Origin: Bifidobacterium breve
GTDB lineage: Bacteria; Actinomycetota; Acidimicrobiia; Acidimicrobiales; Acidimicrobilacustridaceae
Direction: 5' to 3'
Length of the DNA: 64,000 bases
Assembly: GCA_945860545.1 (NCBI GenBank)
Contig: CAMAQM010000001.1
Span: 62,001 to 126,000, forward strand
The translations under genes were made by a program, and so were the position numbers. The notes under the pieces are model-generated. The model was not told the DNA's origin, did not search any database, and saw only the letters and a program-made list of their open reading frames with translations. Below, piece after piece: positions 3,854 through 12,595 of this stretch; position 1 is the stretch's first letter; each line of letters starts with the position of its first letter.

Positions 3854-4852
3854 TCAGTCGAGTGCCGAGCAGCAGGTGTCCACGATGAGTCGGGTCACCG
3901 TGTACGGGTCACAGTTCGAGTTCGGACGCCGATCCTCGATGTAGCCCTTCTTGTCCACGCCGACCTGCCAGGGGATGCGCACCGACGCACCCCGGTCCGA
4001 CACGCCGTAGGAGTACTCGGTCCACGGGGCGGTCTCGTGCAGACCGGTGAGGCGTCGCTCAACACCGGCGCCGTAGTTGGTGATGTGGAGTTCGGCCTTG
4101 GTGCCGAGCGCCTCACACGCCGTGATGATCGGATCCCAACCTTCGCGCATGGCCTTGGTGGAGAAGTTGGTGTGGGCTCCCGCACCGTTCCAGTCGCCCG
4201 GCATGGGCTTGGGGTCGATGGTGACGGCGACGTCGAAGTCTTCGGCGATGCGGTACAGCAACCAGCGGGCGATGTAGACCTCGTCGGCCACGAGCGGCGG
4301 AGCGACCGGGCCGATCTGGAACTCCCACTGGCCCATCATCACCTCGGCGTTGGTGCCCGAGATGTGCAGACCCGCCTTCATGCAGGCGGTGGTGTGCGCC
4401 TCAACGATGTCGCGGCCCCAGATCTCATCGGAGCCGACACCGCAGTAGTAGGGGCCCTGCGGGCCGGGGTAACCGCCGGCCGGCCAACCCAGCGGCCGGC
4501 CTTCCTTGAGGAAGGTGTACTCCTGCTCGATGCCGAAGATGGGCTCCTGGGTGGCGTACTTCTCGGCCACCTCGGCGCAGGCGGCGCGGGTGTTGGTGGG
4601 GTGTGGGGTCATGTCGGTGAGGAGCACCTCGCACAGCACCAGCTTGTCGCCACCGCCGCGGATCGGGTCGGGGCACACGAACACCGGGCGCAGCACGCAG
4701 TCGGAGTTCTTCCCGGGGGCCTGGTTCGTGCTTGAGCCGTCGAACCCCCAGATGCCGGGAGCCTCAGCGTCCTCAATGATCTTGGTCTTGGATCGCAGCA
4801 GGGGGGTCGGCTCGGTGCCGTCAATCCAGATGTACTCAGCTCGGTAGGCCAC
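3854..4852 (-). CDS. glnII: Glutamine synthetase type II (eukaryote-like GSII)
   Basis: ATP-dependent ligase making glutamine from glutamate and ammonia. At 332 aa it has the short GSII length rather than the about 450-470 aa of GSI, and it carries GSII signatures: a beta-grasp start YIWIDGT, GFDGSSTNQA, the glutamate-binding FGIEQEYT, NAEVMMGQWEFQIG and the ATP-site region MPGDWNGAGAHTNFS. GSII is not controlled by adenylylation. The GTG start at 4852 has GGAGAG ideally placed upstream; the longer ORF start in the track is rejected. It is divergent from a GlnA2-like GSI and a GlnR-like regulator, so all three form one nitrogen locus. Acquired long ago by several actinobacterial lineages. Confidence 0.93.
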   Translation of the reverse strand: MAYRAEYIWIDGTEPTPLLRSKTKIIEDAEAPGIWGFDGSSTNQAPGKNSDCVLRPVFVCPDPIRGGGDKLVLCEVLLTDMTPHPTNTRAACAEVAEKYATQEPIFGIEQEYTFLKEGRPLGWPAGGYPGPQGPYYCGVGSDEIWGRDIVEAHTTACMKAGLHISGTNAEVMMGQWEFQIGPVAPPLVADEVYIARWLLYRIAEDFDVAVTIDPKPMPGDWNGAGAHTNFSTKAMREGWDPIITACEALGTKAELHITNYGAGVERRLTGLHETAPWTEYSYGVSDRGASVRIPWQVGVDKKGYIEDRRPNSNCDPYTVTRLIVDTCCSALD

Positions 4853-4954
4853 AGGTTCTCTCCAGTCTCGGGACGGCGGTCTGCCGTCTTGGTCACGAGC
4901 GTGCTTGTCGATTGGGAGCATTCCACCGAGCGTTTTCAGCGCTGTTGCCCGGTT

Positions 4955-4971: not shown

Positions 4972-5061
4972 AGCCAGTCTGACACTGGTTGGGTGCCTGA
5001 CAGGTCCGCTACACCACTGGGAGGACATCGCCCTTTGGGTGGTGGGTGCGGAGGTGAAAGT

Positions 5062-6405
5062 ATGACAGCCATGGAGCGGCAGCAGGAATATGCCCTGCGG
5101 ACAGTCGAAGAGCGCGGGGTCCGGCTGATCCGGCTGTGGTTCACCGACGTTCTCGGTCAACTGAAGTCGGTGGCCATTTCGCCCGCCGAGCTCGAGGTGG
5201 CGTTCGAGGAGGGTGTGCACTTCGACGGTTCGGCCATCGATGGGTTCAGCCGGGTCCAGGAGAGTGACGTGCTGGCACGGCCTGATCCGGCCACGTTCGA
5301 ACTCGTGCCGTGGGGTCGCGAGGAGGACGTTTCGGCCCGCATGTTCTGCGACATCCTGGGCACCGACGGCACCCCGTTCGACGGTGACCCGCGTCACGTG
5401 CTCAAGCGGAACCTCGACCGTGCCCGTCAAGCGGGATTCCAGTTCATGGTGGCGCCCGAGATGGAGTTCTTCTACTTCTCTCACGGGGATCCCACCCGAC
5501 CCCTAGAACCTCTTGACACCGGCTCGTACTTCGATCTCACTACCACCGATGCGGCCAGTGACCTGCGCAAGCGCACCATCGCCATGCTTGAGGCGCTCGG
5601 CATTCCCGTCGAGTACTCGTTCCATGAGGACGCCCCCAGCCAGCACGAGATCGATCTGCGCTACACCGACGCGTTGACCATGGCCGACAACGTCATGACG
5701 TTCCGTCTGGTGGTGCGAGAAATCGCTCTTGAACGCGGCAGTTACGCCACCTTCATGCCCAAGCCCCTCGAAGGAGTGCAGGGGTCAGGCATGCACACGC
5801 ATCTGTCGTTGTTCGGTGAGGACGGCAACGCCTTCCACGACCCGTCGGGGGCCTACGGACTGTCCAAGGTGGCCCACGGGTTCATCGCCGGGCTGTTGGT
5901 GCACGCCCCGGAGATCACGGCGGTCACCAACCAGTTGGTGAACTCCTACAAGCGTCTGGTGCATGGCTACGAGGCACCCACGTGGGTGACCTGGGCCCGC
6001 AACAACCGTTCGGCGTTGGTGCGTATCCCCGTGACCAAGCCGGGCAAGGCGTCATCGACCCGTATCGAGTTCCGGTCCCCCGACCCGGCGTGCAACCCGT
6101 ACCTGGCGTTCGCGCTGATGCTGGCGGCGGGCCTGCGGGGCATCGAGCGGGGGTACGAGTTGCCCGATGAGTCGGTGACCAACGTGTTCGAGCTGACGCC
6201 CGCCGAGCGTGCGGCCGCCGGCATTGGTGCGCTCCCCCAGTCGTTGTCCGAGGCGCTCGACGTCATGGAGGGGTCGGACCTGGTGGCTGAAGCACTCGGG
6301 GAACACATCTTTGAGTGGTTCCTGCGCAACAAGCGCAACGAGTGGCAGGCCTACAAGAGCCACGTCACGCCCTTCGAGTTGGCCCGCTACCTGCCGAGCG
6401 TCTGA
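5062..6405 (+). CDS. glnA2: Type I glutamine synthetase, GlnA2-like
   Basis: A 447-aa GSI that matches the M. tuberculosis GlnA2 class from start to end by recall (FTDVLGQLKSVAI, FDGSAIDGF, MADNVMTFR, the conserved C-terminus FLRNKRNEW). The tyrosine that is adenylylated in GSI-beta enzymes is absent: the loop reads NVFELTPAER. Activity is therefore unlikely to be switched by GlnE. GlnA2-type enzymes are implicated in glutamine or isoglutamine metabolism, and some relatives glutamylate polyamines. Start ATG 5062 has a strong GGAGGTGAAAGT site. The GlnR-like gene follows after 4 bp, indicating one operon. Confidence 0.92.
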   Translation: MTAMERQQEYALRTVEERGVRLIRLWFTDVLGQLKSVAISPAELEVAFEEGVHFDGSAIDGFSRVQESDVLARPDPATFELVPWGREEDVSARMFCDILGTDGTPFDGDPRHVLKRNLDRARQAGFQFMVAPEMEFFYFSHGDPTRPLEPLDTGSYFDLTTTDAASDLRKRTIAMLEALGIPVEYSFHEDAPSQHEIDLRYTDALTMADNVMTFRLVVREIALERGSYATFMPKPLEGVQGSGMHTHLSLFGEDGNAFHDPSGAYGLSKVAHGFIAGLLVHAPEITAVTNQLVNSYKRLVHGYEAPTWVTWARNNRSALVRIPVTKPGKASSTRIEFRSPDPACNPYLAFALMLAAGLRGIERGYELPDESVTNVFELTPAERAAAGIGALPQSLSEALDVMEGSDLVAEALGEHIFEWFLRNKRNEWQAYKSHVTPFELARYLPSV

Positions 6406-8263: not shown

Positions 8264-8617
8264 CTATAGCCCGCGCGGGTAGGTCCAGGCGTCGATCTCG
8301 ACGAGGGCGTGCAACGGCAGTTCCGCCACCGCAACGGTGGTGCGGGCCGGCCGGTGGTCACCGAACGCCGCCACCCACACCTCGTTCATGATGTCGAAGT
8401 CGCGCATGTGCCGGAGGAACACGGTGGCCTTGACCACCTCACCGAGTCCGGACCCCTCCCCGGCGAGCAGGGTGGCGAGGTTGGCCAGGGCCTGGGTGGC
8501 TTCTTCACGGATGCCTCCCGAGACGATGCGTCCATCGCGCAGCCCGATCTGGCCGGAGGTCACGAGCCAGTCGCCGGCTCGCACGATGGGTGCGTAGGGG
8601 CCGATCGGCGTTGACAT
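8264..8617 (-). CDS. RidA-family (YjgF/YER057c/UK114) deaminase-like protein
   Basis: A 117-aa RidA-fold protein. RidA members hydrolyse reactive imines or enamines released by PLP enzymes; other subgroups act in catabolic pathways. Features include a start SxPIGPYAPIV, the central SGQIGL strand, LATLLAGEGSGLGEVVKATVFL, and ARTTVAVAELP in which Arg is the usual substrate-binding residue of active RidA. Trimer formation is expected. ATG 8617 is preceded by CGAGGAGCACCC. It lies 34 bp after the molybdo-fusion gene and 9 bp before the small membrane protein gene, so it probably detoxifies or processes a product of that enzyme rather than serving general metabolism; this is inference from context. 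Confidence 0.9.
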   Translation of the reverse strand: MSTPIGPYAPIVRAGDWLVTSGQIGLRDGRIVSGGIREEATQALANLATLLAGEGSGLGEVVKATVFLRHMRDFDIMNEVWVAAFGDHRPARTTVAVAELPLHALVEIDAWTYPRGL

Positions 8618-8651: not shown

Positions 8652-10250
8652 TCAGCGCGACCGTAGCGGCACACCGGTGGGCCACGTGTCGGGAAGTCCC
8701 TGGTGGCGCCACACGGCGAGGGCGACGGCGGCGAACACGGCGTCGCCGGCGGGAACCGCCTCGCCGGTCGTGTCGCCGAGCGACGCATCGATTCTCACGG
8801 TGACTGGCGGCATGTCGGTGGCTTTGAGAATGCCGAACGAACGGATCGTGAGGTCCTCAACCGATCCCGTCTCGCCGTCCACGGCGAGGCTCTCGGAAGT
8901 GACCCAACTCGCCGCCATGTGGGCTGCGCCGGTGCACGCCGAGATCAGCACCACATCGTCGAGCGGTTCGCCACAGGCGACGCGGACCGCGATGGTGCCG
9001 TCCGCCTCCACGGCGGCGGCTGCGGTGGCACCCGCGGGTGAGGTGATGCGGTCCACGCCTGTCGCTGCGGCCACGGCCACCGCAGCTTCCACCCATCCCG
9101 CGCCGCGCACCCGCACCGACGTGGGCGGGCCGATGACGTCGCAGGGAGTGACGACGAGACCGGGGGCGACCTCGGCGACGGCGTCGACCACCCCTGGGGT
9201 GTGCGCCACCGCCATGACCCCTGTCCCGTCGGGTCGCACCCCGATGGCTACCGGTGGTCGTTTCGGGCCGAGTCGGACGGCGTCCTCGCGGTCGAACAAC
9301 ACCCGGACGCACCGGTCGTGGTCGTCGGCGAGTTGTCGCGCTGCTTGGGTGACTGGGGAATCGACCTTGCCGCCGAACGCCCCGCCGTTCGCCAATGGCG
9401 TCGCAGGGGTGCCCCCCGGTTCGCACCACGAGGCGTCGGTCTCGAGGTAGGCGGGATCGACCCACGAGGTCCGAAGCGTCACTGACCATTCGCCTTCGGG
9501 CACCTCGAGAGGGGGTTGTGACGCCACGGTGGTGCGGCGGCCCTGCACTTTGCTGGCCTGTCGTCGGGCGTCGGCGACGGTGGTGTCGACCACCCAGCCA
9601 CCTGCGGGGTCGGGGAGTGCCACGAGTGCATCGGGTGGACACGTGTCGCTGGCGAAACCTGCCTGACCGGCAGCGACAGCCGGTCCCACGATCTGGGTGC
9701 TGCCACCCTCAAGCGTGGCTCGTCGACTGGCGGCGGCGGGGTCCCGACAGGCGAGGCCATCCTCGCCGAGTCGAGGGTCGGCCCCCTCACCGGTGGCGAG
9801 GTTCCAGGCGTCGATGATGGGCCGCCACCCGGTGCATCGACACAGGTGGGCGGCCAATGCCCGCTCAACCGTCTCGTCGGGAACCGCGCTGTCGGCGCGT
9901 TGTTCTTCGCCGCGTCGGAGTCCTTCGAGGCGCACGATGATGCCGGGGGTGCAAAAGCCGCACTGGCTGGCACCGCACGCCGTGAACGCCGCCAGCCACC
10001 GTTGTCTGGTCGGAGCGTCGAGTCCGTCGAGTGTGGTCACCTCCCGGTCGGCGACCCGCCGCACCGGGGTCACGCACGCCACCCGCGGTTTGCCGTCGAC
10101 GAGCACCGTGCAGCACCCGCATTGTCCCTGCGGGCTGCAACCATCCTTGACCGAGGTGATTCCGCACTGGTCACGCACGACGTCAAGCAGGCTCGCTTGT
10201 TCGTCGGCGACGACGATCTCCGAACCGTCGACGCGCAACCTCACGGTCAT
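8652..10250 (-). CDS. Fused [2Fe-2S] and short molybdopterin hydroxylase protein
   Basis: A 532-aa xanthine dehydrogenase/aldehyde oxidase relative of unusual build. Residues 1-75 are a plant-type ferredoxin domain (GCSPQGQCGCC plus Cys59); residues 80-150 are the helical second [2Fe-2S] domain (CGFC, CRC). After a linker, residues about 275-532 resemble parts of the molybdopterin subunit: GGAFGGKV, DREDAVRLG.KRPP and, near the C-terminus, a GE (about Glu497) at the place of the catalytic Glu. A normal molybdo subunit alone is about 750 aa and a FAD subunit is usually present; both the size and the missing FAD partner are odd. ATG 10250 is chosen because the domain begins there, although its ribosome site is weak. 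Substrate unknown. Confidence 0.75.
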   Translation of the reverse strand: MTVRLRVDGSEIVVADEQASLLDVVRDQCGITSVKDGCSPQGQCGCCTVLVDGKPRVACVTPVRRVADREVTTLDGLDAPTRQRWLAAFTACGASQCGFCTPGIIVRLEGLRRGEEQRADSAVPDETVERALAAHLCRCTGWRPIIDAWNLATGEGADPRLGEDGLACRDPAAASRRATLEGGSTQIVGPAVAAGQAGFASDTCPPDALVALPDPAGGWVVDTTVADARRQASKVQGRRTTVASQPPLEVPEGEWSVTLRTSWVDPAYLETDASWCEPGGTPATPLANGGAFGGKVDSPVTQAARQLADDHDRCVRVLFDREDAVRLGPKRPPVAIGVRPDGTGVMAVAHTPGVVDAVAEVAPGLVVTPCDVIGPPTSVRVRGAGWVEAAVAVAAATGVDRITSPAGATAAAAVEADGTIAVRVACGEPLDDVVLISACTGAAHMAASWVTSESLAVDGETGSVEDLTIRSFGILKATDMPPVTVRIDASLGDTTGEAVPAGDAVFAAVALAVWRHQGLPDTWPTGVPLRSR

Positions 10251-10278: not shown

Positions 10279-10596
10279 TCAGGAGAACGAGGACCCGCAA
10301 CCGCAGGTGCGCTGCGCGTTGGGGTTCGTGATGGCGAAGCCGCTCTCGAGACCGCCCTTGTAGTCAAGGGTGGCGCCTTGGAGGAGCTGGGCGCTCGACG
10401 GGTCGGTCACGACGGTCACCGGGCCGAACACGGTGGTGATGTCGTTGTCGTCGCGCTCGGAGTCGAAGAACATCTCGTAGGAGAAGCCGGCACAACCGCC
10501 GGGCCGCACGGCCACGCGCAGCATCAGCGCGGTGTCGCCTTCGGCGTCAATGAGATCCTTGACCTTGTCAGCAGCTGCATCGCTCAGGGTGATCAC
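10279..10596 (-). CDS. erpA: A-type iron-sulfur carrier (IscA/ErpA/HesB)
   Basis: A 105-aa A-type carrier that binds an Fe-S cluster and passes it to apo-enzymes. The three ligand cysteines are present: GGCAGF in the middle and CGC near the end (RTCGCGSSF), in the standard spacing. GTG 10596 has GAGGAGGACACC upstream. It is followed after 28 bp by the two-cluster molybdo-fusion gene, whose ferredoxin domains are obvious clients, and preceded by a SufR-like repressor gene. In most actinobacteria the erpA-like gene stands near respiratory genes or ctaC, so this placement is locally distinctive. The symbol is given for class, not for proven orthology. Confidence 0.9.
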   Translation of the reverse strand: MITLSDAAADKVKDLIDAEGDTALMLRVAVRPGGCAGFSYEMFFDSERDDNDITTVFGPVTVVTDPSSAQLLQGATLDYKGGLESGFAITNPNAQRTCGCGSSFS

Positions 10597-10635: not shown

Positions 10636-11355
10636 TCAGGTGGGGATCAGGTCCACCCGACACGGGGTGCGGTCGGCAATGGGGTGGAACGTGCTCACCC
10701 GCTGTCCGCCCAATTCGTCGACGAACCCCTCGACCATGCCGCAGTGGAGGCTGCAGATGATCTCGGGTCGTTCCTCGGCGAGTTCACGGAACGGGCAGTG
10801 GGCAAACGCCATGGTGGTGCAGGTGTCGTCGGTCACCGTCTCGGGGTCGAACCCCAGGCGGGACTGTTCCCGGGTGAGCGCGGCGAGGGTGTTGGTGTGG
10901 CCAGCCCAGTGGCGGCGGGCGTCGTCTCGTCCTTGGGCCACGCCCGCTTCCCGCACGTCCTCGCTGCTCAGCCCACCGTCGGTGACGGCGCCGAGCAGCA
11001 TGCGGGCCAGTGCCGGCCACGGTGACGGTTCGAGGCCGAGACCCGGTGCTTCCGGTGCGAGGGCGTAGCGGTGTTGGGGTCGGCCCACCCCGCCGCGGCC
11101 CACGGTGTCCACGCTGAGCAGGCCCACGTCACGCATCCGCTCGAGGTGGGGACGGACGGTGTTGGGGTGCAGGCCGAGGACTTCGGCCACCTCGGCGGTG
11201 GTCTTGGGGGCGGCGGAGCGGGCGAGCTCGAGGTAGATGGCGTAGCGGGTGTTGTCGCCGAGCGCCTTGAGCAGGTCGAGTTCCGCCTCGGGGTCCTGTC
11301 GGCGCGACCGGGGGGCGTCGGGGCGGGAGTTCGACGCGGCGGGCGGGACGGCCAT
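10636..11355 (-). CDS. SufR/ArsR-like HTH repressor with C-terminal cysteine cluster
   Basis: A 239-aa regulator. Residues about 20-95 are a winged helix with the ArsR/DeoR look (LLKALGDNTRYAIYLELA, LGLHPNTVRPHLERM). The C-terminal half has cysteines at DTCTT, AHCPF and CSLHC, the arrangement seen in SufR-type proteins that sense Fe-S status. It heads the operon with erpA and the molybdo-fusion and is divergent from the Mrp Fe-S carrier across only 40 bp. A -10 TAAACT stands 7 nt before the ATG with no ribosome site, so the mRNA is probably leaderless. Cofactor identity and target are inferred; it could sense something else through the same cysteines. Confidence 0.8.
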   Translation of the reverse strand: MAVPPAASNSRPDAPRSRRQDPEAELDLLKALGDNTRYAIYLELARSAAPKTTAEVAEVLGLHPNTVRPHLERMRDVGLLSVDTVGRGGVGRPQHRYALAPEAPGLGLEPSPWPALARMLLGAVTDGGLSSEDVREAGVAQGRDDARRHWAGHTNTLAALTREQSRLGFDPETVTDDTCTTMAFAHCPFRELAEERPEIICSLHCGMVEGFVDELGGQRVSTFHPIADRTPCRVDLIPT

Positions 11356-11362
11356 GGGATGC

Positions 11363-11368
11363 AGTTTA
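11363..11368 (-). promoter_or_regulatory. -10 element (TAAACT) of the SufR-like gene
   Basis: Seven nt separate it from the ATG at 11355, placing the start site at or next to the start codon. It lies 15 bp from the opposing mrp -10, so each promoter's -35 region falls on the other's -10. Confidence 0.5.
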
Positions 11369-11383
11369 CACGGACTTTGTCGG

Positions 11384-11389
11384 TAGAAT
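11384..11389 (+). promoter_or_regulatory. -10 element (TAGAAT) of mrp
   Basis: Six nt separate the hexamer from the GTG at 11396, and there is no ribosome site, so mrp is predicted to be leaderless. The imperfect inverted repeat between the two opposed -10 boxes (ACGGAC-TTT-GTCGGT) is the natural place for an operator. Confidence 0.55.
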
Positions 11390-11395
11390 TGGGCC

Positions 11396-12595
11396 GTGTC
11401 CGCAACGTCGTCTCCTTCCCTGCCCAGCGATGAGGAGGTGTTCGCCCTGCTCAGAGGGGTGATCGACCCCGAACTGGGGAGCGACATCGTGGATCTGGGC
11501 ATGGCCAAGGCCGTCGAGGTCAGCCCCGCAGGTGTCGTCACGGTCACCGTGGCGCTCACGACGTCGGGATGCCCGCTGCGTGCCCAGATCCAAAAGGACG
11601 TCCGCGCCCGCATCGGTTCGCTGCCCGGCGTGACCAAGGTCAAGCTCAACTGGACGGAACTCACGGCTGAGGAAAAAGCCGACACGATGTCGCGGGCGCG
11701 TCTCAACGCTGCGGCCAACGCGCCCGACACGGAGATCCCCGCCACGACCCGGGTGATCTGCGTGGCCTCGGGCAAGGGTGGGGTCGGGAAGTCGTCGGTG
11801 ACGGTGAACCTTGCAGCCGCGCTCGCCGCTCGGGGCCTCACCGTTGGGGTTCTCGACGCCGACATCTGGGGGTTTTCCGTGCCGCGCATGCTCGGCGTGG
11901 AGGGCCGTCTGGGGGGCGAGGTGGTCACCGGCGACACCGCCGACGCAGACCGCAAGATCGTGCCCCACACCAAGCAGGTGGGCGACGGACTGCTCAAGGT
12001 CGTGTCGATGGGGCTGCTCGTCGACGACGAGGAGACGGCGCTGATGTGGCGCGGGTTGATGCTGAACCGTGCGGTGCAGCACTTCTTGGAGGATGTGCGC
12101 TGGGGAGCGATGGATTACCTGGTGATCGACATGCCTCCCGGCACTGGCGACGTGCAGATGGGTCTGGCCCGGATGCTGCCCCGCGCCGAACTCATCGTGG
12201 TCACCACCCCGTCGACGAGCGCCCAGAAGGTGGCCGTGCGGGCCGTGAACATGGCGCGTCGCAGCCACCTGCGAGTGGCGGGAGTCATCGAGAACATGAG
12301 TGCATTCACGTGTGAGCACGGCACTCCATACCCGTTGTTCGGATCGGGTGGCGGGGCGGCACTCGCTGCGGAAGCAGGGGTGTCACTGCTGGCGTCGATC
12401 CCACTCGAGCCGTCGGTGGCCGCCGGTGGTGACGTCGGGTCCCCCATCGCCCTCGGCGAGGGTCCGGCCGCCGAGGCGTTCCGCGACCTCGCCGAACTCG
12501 TGGTCTCCGAGGTGGTGCCCCCCGTGGCGATGGCCGGGTGCTCAGCCCGCATGCTCGACGCTGCGGTCGCCGCCCTCGACGCCGCCGACCTCTAG
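11396..12595 (+). CDS. mrp: Mrp/NBP35-type P-loop iron-sulfur carrier
   Basis: A 399-aa ApbC/Nbp35 protein. Residues about 10-90 are the MIP18/DUF59 domain (VIDPELGSDIVDLG); residues about 120-360 are the deviant-Walker ATPase with GKGGVGKSS, DADIWG and DMPPGTGD. Members bind a bridging Fe-S cluster across a dimer and hand it to apoproteins in an ATP-dependent way. Unlike many orthologues, an obvious C-terminal CxxC pair is not present; the candidate cysteine is in SAFTCEHG, followed by only one more Cys (AGCSAR), so the cluster ligation may differ. GTG 11396 is fixed by the -10 box 6 nt upstream. Divergent from the Fe-S-type repressor. Confidence 0.92.
   Translation: MSATSSPSLPSDEEVFALLRGVIDPELGSDIVDLGMAKAVEVSPAGVVTVTVALTTSGCPLRAQIQKDVRARIGSLPGVTKVKLNWTELTAEEKADTMSRARLNAAANAPDTEIPATTRVICVASGKGGVGKSSVTVNLAAALAARGLTVGVLDADIWGFSVPRMLGVEGRLGGEVVTGDTADADRKIVPHTKQVGDGLLKVVSMGLLVDDEETALMWRGLMLNRAVQHFLEDVRWGAMDYLVIDMPPGTGDVQMGLARMLPRAELIVVTTPSTSAQKVAVRAVNMARRSHLRVAGVIENMSAFTCEHGTPYPLFGSGGGAALAAEAGVSLLASIPLEPSVAAGGDVGSPIALGEGPAAEAFRDLAELVVSEVVPPVAMAGCSARMLDAAVAALDAADL

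Follow-up and report, generated by a model that had tools for sequence, protein, structure and literature searches.

Does the gene at positions 8652 to 10250 (reverse strand) of the window, the stretch of 64,000 nucleotides analysed here, encode a molybdenum hydroxylase in miniature or a protein of another kind? Its reading frame, which begins with an ATG at position 10250, has no internal stop and gives a protein of 532 residues. We refer to the gene and its product, a two-[2Fe-2S]/pseudo-molybdopterin-domain protein, as mini; the gene call draws on the open reading frame and its translation, on orthologs, on dN/dS and on an AlphaFold2 model. A longer reading of 571 amino acids from a TTG start was rejected, as it runs into the upstream ErpA gene and is given no support by the orthologs. 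The Pfam search of mini returned Fer2_2 (PF01799; E 6e-17), with Fer2/Fer2_3, MoCoBD_1 and MoCoBD_2 appearing as sub-threshold fragments only, below the curated cut-offs. No earlier description of the protein was found in the open-access literature searched.

The unusual length of mini raises the suspicion of a frameshift, a truncation or a pseudogene of a normal enzyme, and a sequencing frameshift had been considered in the initial annotation of this DNA. However, homologs of about 500 to 550 amino acids occur across the class, and the same length recurs in hundreds of genomes. Mini matched 58 of 61 relatives, in most of them over the full length, and at least 549 stretches of genome contigs contain candidates. 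Among the best 80 of these stretches, titles naming Acidimicrobiia/Acidimicrobiales or unresolved Actinomycetota MAGs predominated; two MAGs labelled Acidobacteria and one labelled 'bacterium' were also present. Within the class Acidimicrobiia, 117 of 296 genomes carry mini. An Actinomycetota-wide sample yielded 26 carriers among 397 genomes, all 26 belonging to the window's own class and none of the sampled Actinomycetota outside Acidimicrobiia having the gene. In a plasmid collection nothing covered most of the protein, the matches listed being confined to the ferredoxin part. Between close pairs, dN/dS was 0.06–0.27 overall and at most 0.30 in each half, well below 1, and both halves of mini are under purifying selection. 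The class-wide distribution and the dN/dS values, together with the equal-length orthologs and a high-confidence structural model, exclude a frameshifted or decaying gene, to which we assign practically no probability. In genus g43, mini was missing from between the ErpA and RidA genes that flank it in the window in G113, G116, G155, G161, G317 and G285, small genomes in which the two flanking genes are still joined; G107, G140 and G273 are g43 genomes that do carry it.

The N-terminal part of mini consists of a plant-type [2Fe-2S] domain (Fer2, residues 1–72; 10035–10250, reverse strand; C38, C44, C47, C59) and a second [2Fe-2S] domain (Fer2_2, residues 73–152; 9795–10034, reverse strand; C97, C100, C137, C139). 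All eight cysteines are kept in 97 of 97 homologs, confirming the initial impression that the Fe-S ligands are intact. Mini thus possesses the pair of [2Fe-2S] domains, complete with eight Cys ligands, that marks the xanthine oxidase (XO) family.

The remainder of the protein was modelled with AlphaFold2 from an input of 79 homologs (pLDDT 94.2, pTM 0.94). In a Foldseek search of the PDB, whole aldehyde oxidoreductases (AORs) ranked first, with TM scores of 0.52–0.65 by query and 0.33–0.40 by target, the alignments being extended by long gaps. As modelled, mini has the fold of xanthine oxidase/aldehyde oxidoreductase, from which large internal pieces are deleted. The structural check proposed at the outset came out in favour of homology, with residues 160–532 predicted to fall on the molybdopterin-type fold in a shrunken form. 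The C-terminal half of a mini family profile was by itself enough to reach molybdopterin subunits in the PDB (3hrd_A, E 1e-5; PaoC 5g5g_C, E 1e-4), showing that this homology is not due to chance. Taken together, Pfam, AlphaFold2 and Foldseek uphold the architecture first proposed as possibly new, a ferredoxin module joined to a molybdopterin-type domain of reduced length, and the size of the latter was also well estimated (about 250–370 residues then, about 370 now).

We aligned mini by hhalign with fused relatives of 860–880 amino acids from the same order (Acidimicrobiales), leaving out the global alignment over residues 345–430, which was unreliable. Residues 160–255 (9486–9773, reverse strand; segment A) correspond to a remnant of the a/b hammerhead region (PF01315). 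This remnant was recognised by profile alignment only, PF01315 giving no Pfam match in mini, and the alignment of segment A with the full-length relatives (residues 160–300) was weak (E 7e-5, probability 64). Residues 256–345 (9216–9485, reverse strand; segment B, E 1e-10) are a remnant of MoCoBD_1 with a nearly invariant GGxFGxK motif and a sub-threshold PF02738 match, and residues 400–532 (8655–9053, reverse strand; segment D, E 7e-12) are what is left of the C-terminal part of MoCoBD_2. The N-terminal half of the molybdopterin part, first described as missing, is therefore better described as shrunken. Compared with the fused relatives, mini has lost the bulk of the hammerhead and a piece of about 32 residues of MoCoBD_1 with the SGGQGVWDDR (active-site Gln/QG) loop. 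Also missing are a stretch of about 185 residues from the first half of MoCoBD_2 and the loop KGVGE, which bears the catalytic Glu. The complete MoCoBD_1 and MoCoBD_2 domains of the XO family are thus not present.

These deletions strike the residues on which catalysis depends. Functional roles in the XO family have been assigned to Glu1261 of the bovine enzyme, Glu802 and Arg880 (PMC3624778). The KGxGE motif with the catalytic Glu (Glu869 in DgAOR, Glu1261 in the bovine enzyme) was found in none of 97 mini family members. A 'GE' near the C-terminus of the window's protein had been put forward as a candidate for this residue, but its column holds E in 39 of the 97 sequences and P in 44. Residue 296 of mini, which follows FGGK and corresponds to bovine Glu802, is variable (L, V, A, R, T). 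R382 is kept in 95 of 97 sequences, and the alignment of its segment with RGFG (Arg880) was not significant (E 0.08). Other positions are strictly maintained: G290, F292, G293, K295, R321, K330 and R331 are among the invariant residues, as are E388, H444, E453, R470 and S471, and W275-C276 is nearly invariant. The FGxK and R-G stretches, which match cofactor-site motifs of the parent enzymes, are also still conserved.

Could mini nevertheless be a genuine miniature molybdenum hydroxylase, holding the molybdenum cofactor (Moco) in a reduced pocket and using a non-standard acid/base residue? The conserved FGxK, R382 and the invariant E388, H444 and E453 would suit such an enzyme. The presence of Moco genes in most carriers would do so too, and many of these carriers are without another large subunit of the XO family. 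To judge by gene presence, most carriers do make Moco, including the window's genome, which encodes MoaA, MoaC and MoeA together on one contig (C9). In the latter genome, the only PF02738 match is mini itself, and one sub-threshold PF00941 match was all that was found of an FAD subunit, in agreement with the initial annotation, which had noted that none was present. The same annotation had considered an incomplete enzyme that needs a partner elsewhere. This is disfavoured, and a canonical large-subunit partner was rejected as a candidate, since no PF01315 match was found in the window's genome or in twelve further mini carriers.

The 117 carriers are at least 90% complete, except for the window's own genome at 89.6%. 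In 15 of these 117, MoaA was not found, and MoeA was not found in the same 15. PF01315 was absent from 14 of the 15 and MoaC from 6; five comparison relatives scored positive in the MoeA and MoaC searches. At least 14 genomes therefore keep mini without detectable MoaA, MoeA or canonical large subunit, and in the genomes lacking MoaA and MoeA mini retains both its motifs and its genomic place. Occurrence only where Moco is made, as for the XO family, thus does not hold for mini. All 15 genomes are draft assemblies, and twelve of them come from one family, which leaves only a few independent losses. Good MoaC genes without MoaA and MoeA were seen in G107, G140, G210, G223, G252, G261, G266, G273 and G308. 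G085 has three PF01315 large-subunit genes, yet MoaA, MoaC and MoeA were not found, which likely reflects an assembly gap, or else Moco genes beyond the models used.

We conclude that the mini family is independent of Moco. Because the active-site loops are lost and the gene is kept without MoaA, MoeA or a large subunit, mini is most likely a Moco-free descendant of a molybdoenzyme; that it is Moco-free we hold to be very probable, and the window's own protein would share this cofactor-free state. Its initial identification as a molybdenum hydroxylase is not sustained: mini is without the Glu loop, the Gln loop and one half of MoCoBD_2, and the gene persists in genomes without detectable MoaA and MoeA. 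With the Glu802 position variable as well, a working hydroxylase of reduced size appears improbable.

A tree built from the ferredoxin part joined mini to the fused full-length relatives, apart from other Fe-S subunits (support 99/94); the fused relatives formed one clade (98/100), with the root between them and mini not resolved. The closest likeness is to the selenium-dependent-type xanthine dehydrogenases of TIGR03311 and the Acidimicrobiales relatives of 860–880 amino acids (such as L040 and L041). They share with mini the order of parts, the FAD-less single chain and an unusual KDGCSPxGQCGCCTV ferredoxin motif, but mini is about 340 residues shorter, the missing parts including the hammerhead bulk, the Gln loop, the first half of MoCoBD_2 and KGVGE, and it scored 142.5 bits against a curated TIGR03311 cut-off of 830. 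The simplest reading of the sequences is that mini may have arisen when a fused enzyme resembling TIGR03311 lost internal segments. The aldehyde oxidoreductase MOP of Desulfovibrio also has two [2Fe-2S] domains fused to the Mo domain and no FAD (PMC10223205). It was the best fold match to mini (1sij, 1dgj) and shares this FAD-less fusion, but has 907 amino acids, MCD-Mo and Glu869, whereas mini has 532 and is without the Glu. The small Fe-S subunits 4-hydroxybenzoyl-CoA reductase gamma and CoxS resemble the ferredoxin part of mini (E 3e-37, 1rm6_C); unlike mini, they are stand-alone subunits of 160 amino acids that need a large subunit.

What might a Moco-free protein of this kind do? In the window, the order of genes is SufR-like regulator, ErpA, mini, RidA, with Mrp divergent. 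Directly downstream of mini lies a RidA-type enamine/imine deaminase of 117 amino acids (8264–8617, reverse strand; PF01042, E 8e-31; TIGR00004, E 1.5e-27, its 96.3 bits being below the cut-off of 106.25). The catalytic Arg region is conserved (PARxxVAVAxLP, VEI-AW), and both the fold-family match and the catalytic Arg place the protein in the RidA family. Imines, also when produced by amine oxidases, are hydrolysed by RidA proteins that have the conserved Arg (PMC4433059, PMC5619798). RidA is downstream of and co-oriented with mini in 103 of 119 loci and on the opposite strand in none. Of the 103 loci, 92 have RidA as a gene of its own no more than 213 nt from mini, and in about 32 it overlaps the mini stop codon (starts estimated). 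In L156 (6429–8564), mini and RidA share one open frame of 712 codons with an internal ATG preceding the RidA part. This was the only such fusion, in a draft genome without MoaA and MoeA. Mini and RidA are probably co-transcribed and often translationally coupled, and in many genomes ErpA would belong to the same transcript.

A RidA ortholog was found in 108 of 117 mini carriers compared with 67 of 179 non-carriers, a contrast for which the Fisher p-value ignores relatedness. Lineages without mini often still show ErpA followed by RidA. The presence of RidA in most carriers, and also where mini is missing, fits a mini that works with RidA and a RidA that also works alone. The order of genes near ErpA is conserved across Acidimicrobiia as a class, and the adjacency of mini and RidA is therefore weaker evidence than usual. 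On balance we regard a functional coupling of mini with RidA as likely.

The other neighbours suggest a different role, that of an electron donor or cluster-transfer factor in Fe-S assembly serving an ErpA, Mrp and SufR-like regulon, by analogy with the Fdx ferredoxin of isc. An ErpA-type Fe-S carrier (10279–10596, reverse strand; NF010147, E 4e-34) lies directly upstream of mini across a gap of 28 bp, and ErpA is upstream on the same strand in most loci. It is preceded by a SufR/ArsR-like regulator (10636–11394, reverse strand; HTH_20, weak SufR match, start uncertain), and the divergent neighbour, conserved in most loci, is an Mrp/ApbC-type Fe-S carrier (11396–12595, forward strand; PF10609, PF01883, NF041136). 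The adjacency of ErpA is, however, looser than that of RidA: an opposite-strand gene is often interposed, ErpA sits elsewhere in L104, L125 and L143, and several lineages have lost mini yet keep ErpA. A role in Fe-S assembly thus seems rather unlikely.

The interposed gene encodes a conserved lipoprotein/twin-arginine-type protein (for example L063, 6693–7559, and L059, 9170–10036) with the motifs PICTxxPxCPLH and FCQxxxCGPxLD, which on inspection look thioredoxin-like; the only member scanned, that of L063, had no Pfam or NCBIfam match. As a partner of mini it was rejected, being on the opposite strand, without a Pfam match and missing from the window's operon. Near the operon, the window also contains two divergent glutamine-synthetase-like genes (3854–4921 and about 5060–6405) followed by an OmpR/PhoB-like regulator, an arrangement partly conserved in relatives.

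The explanation that we favour, and consider somewhat more probable than all others together, is that mini is a Moco-free redox protein with two clusters on a trimmed molybdoenzyme scaffold, coupled to RidA; the persistence of RidA beside ErpA where mini is lost speaks against it. A fused, FAD-less XDH/AOR ancestor would have discarded its Moco site while retaining both [2Fe-2S] clusters and a trimmed, well-packed molybdopterin-domain scaffold. The clusters might then serve as an electron relay that links a soluble acceptor with a partner or small substrate bound to the remodelled scaffold. An imine or enamine arising in the same reaction or pathway would be hydrolysed by RidA. This specific electron-transfer/imine role is a tentative proposal. 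It has a parallel in the clusters of RidA and FAD amine-oxidase genes, in which Rid removes imines made by oxidation (PMC4433059). Both arrangements place a Rid gene beside a redox protein gene, but the neighbour in the mini locus is an Fe-S pseudo-hydroxylase and not an FAD or PLP enzyme.

More speculatively, the vacated cavity could have been rebuilt as a Moco-independent active site (perhaps with W275-C276, H444, E388, E453 and R470), in which an amine or heterocycle would be oxidised or reduced via the [2Fe-2S] clusters and the imine or enamine handed to RidA. We think this doubtful; if true, mini would represent a new class of iron-sulfur oxidoreductases of molybdoenzyme descent. Conservation of clusters and scaffold with loss of catalysis, and the open-frame fusion with RidA, would also fit a cofactor-free sensor or scaffold in which the redox state of the clusters alters the fold of the pseudo-domain and thereby regulates RidA or another partner. 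Mini has no DNA-binding or signalling domain, and such a protein is indistinguishable here from an electron carrier; we give this possibility little credence.

Our findings have consequences for how Acidimicrobiia are read. Mini-like genes resemble molybdenum hydroxylases in domain searches, and caution is advised when the molybdoenzymes of this class are counted. Mini would also be a natural example of a large molybdoenzyme scaffold stripped down to a redox protein, with RidA as a concrete partner for probing its function. Class-wide and highly conserved, it appears to have outlived the molybdenum cofactor.
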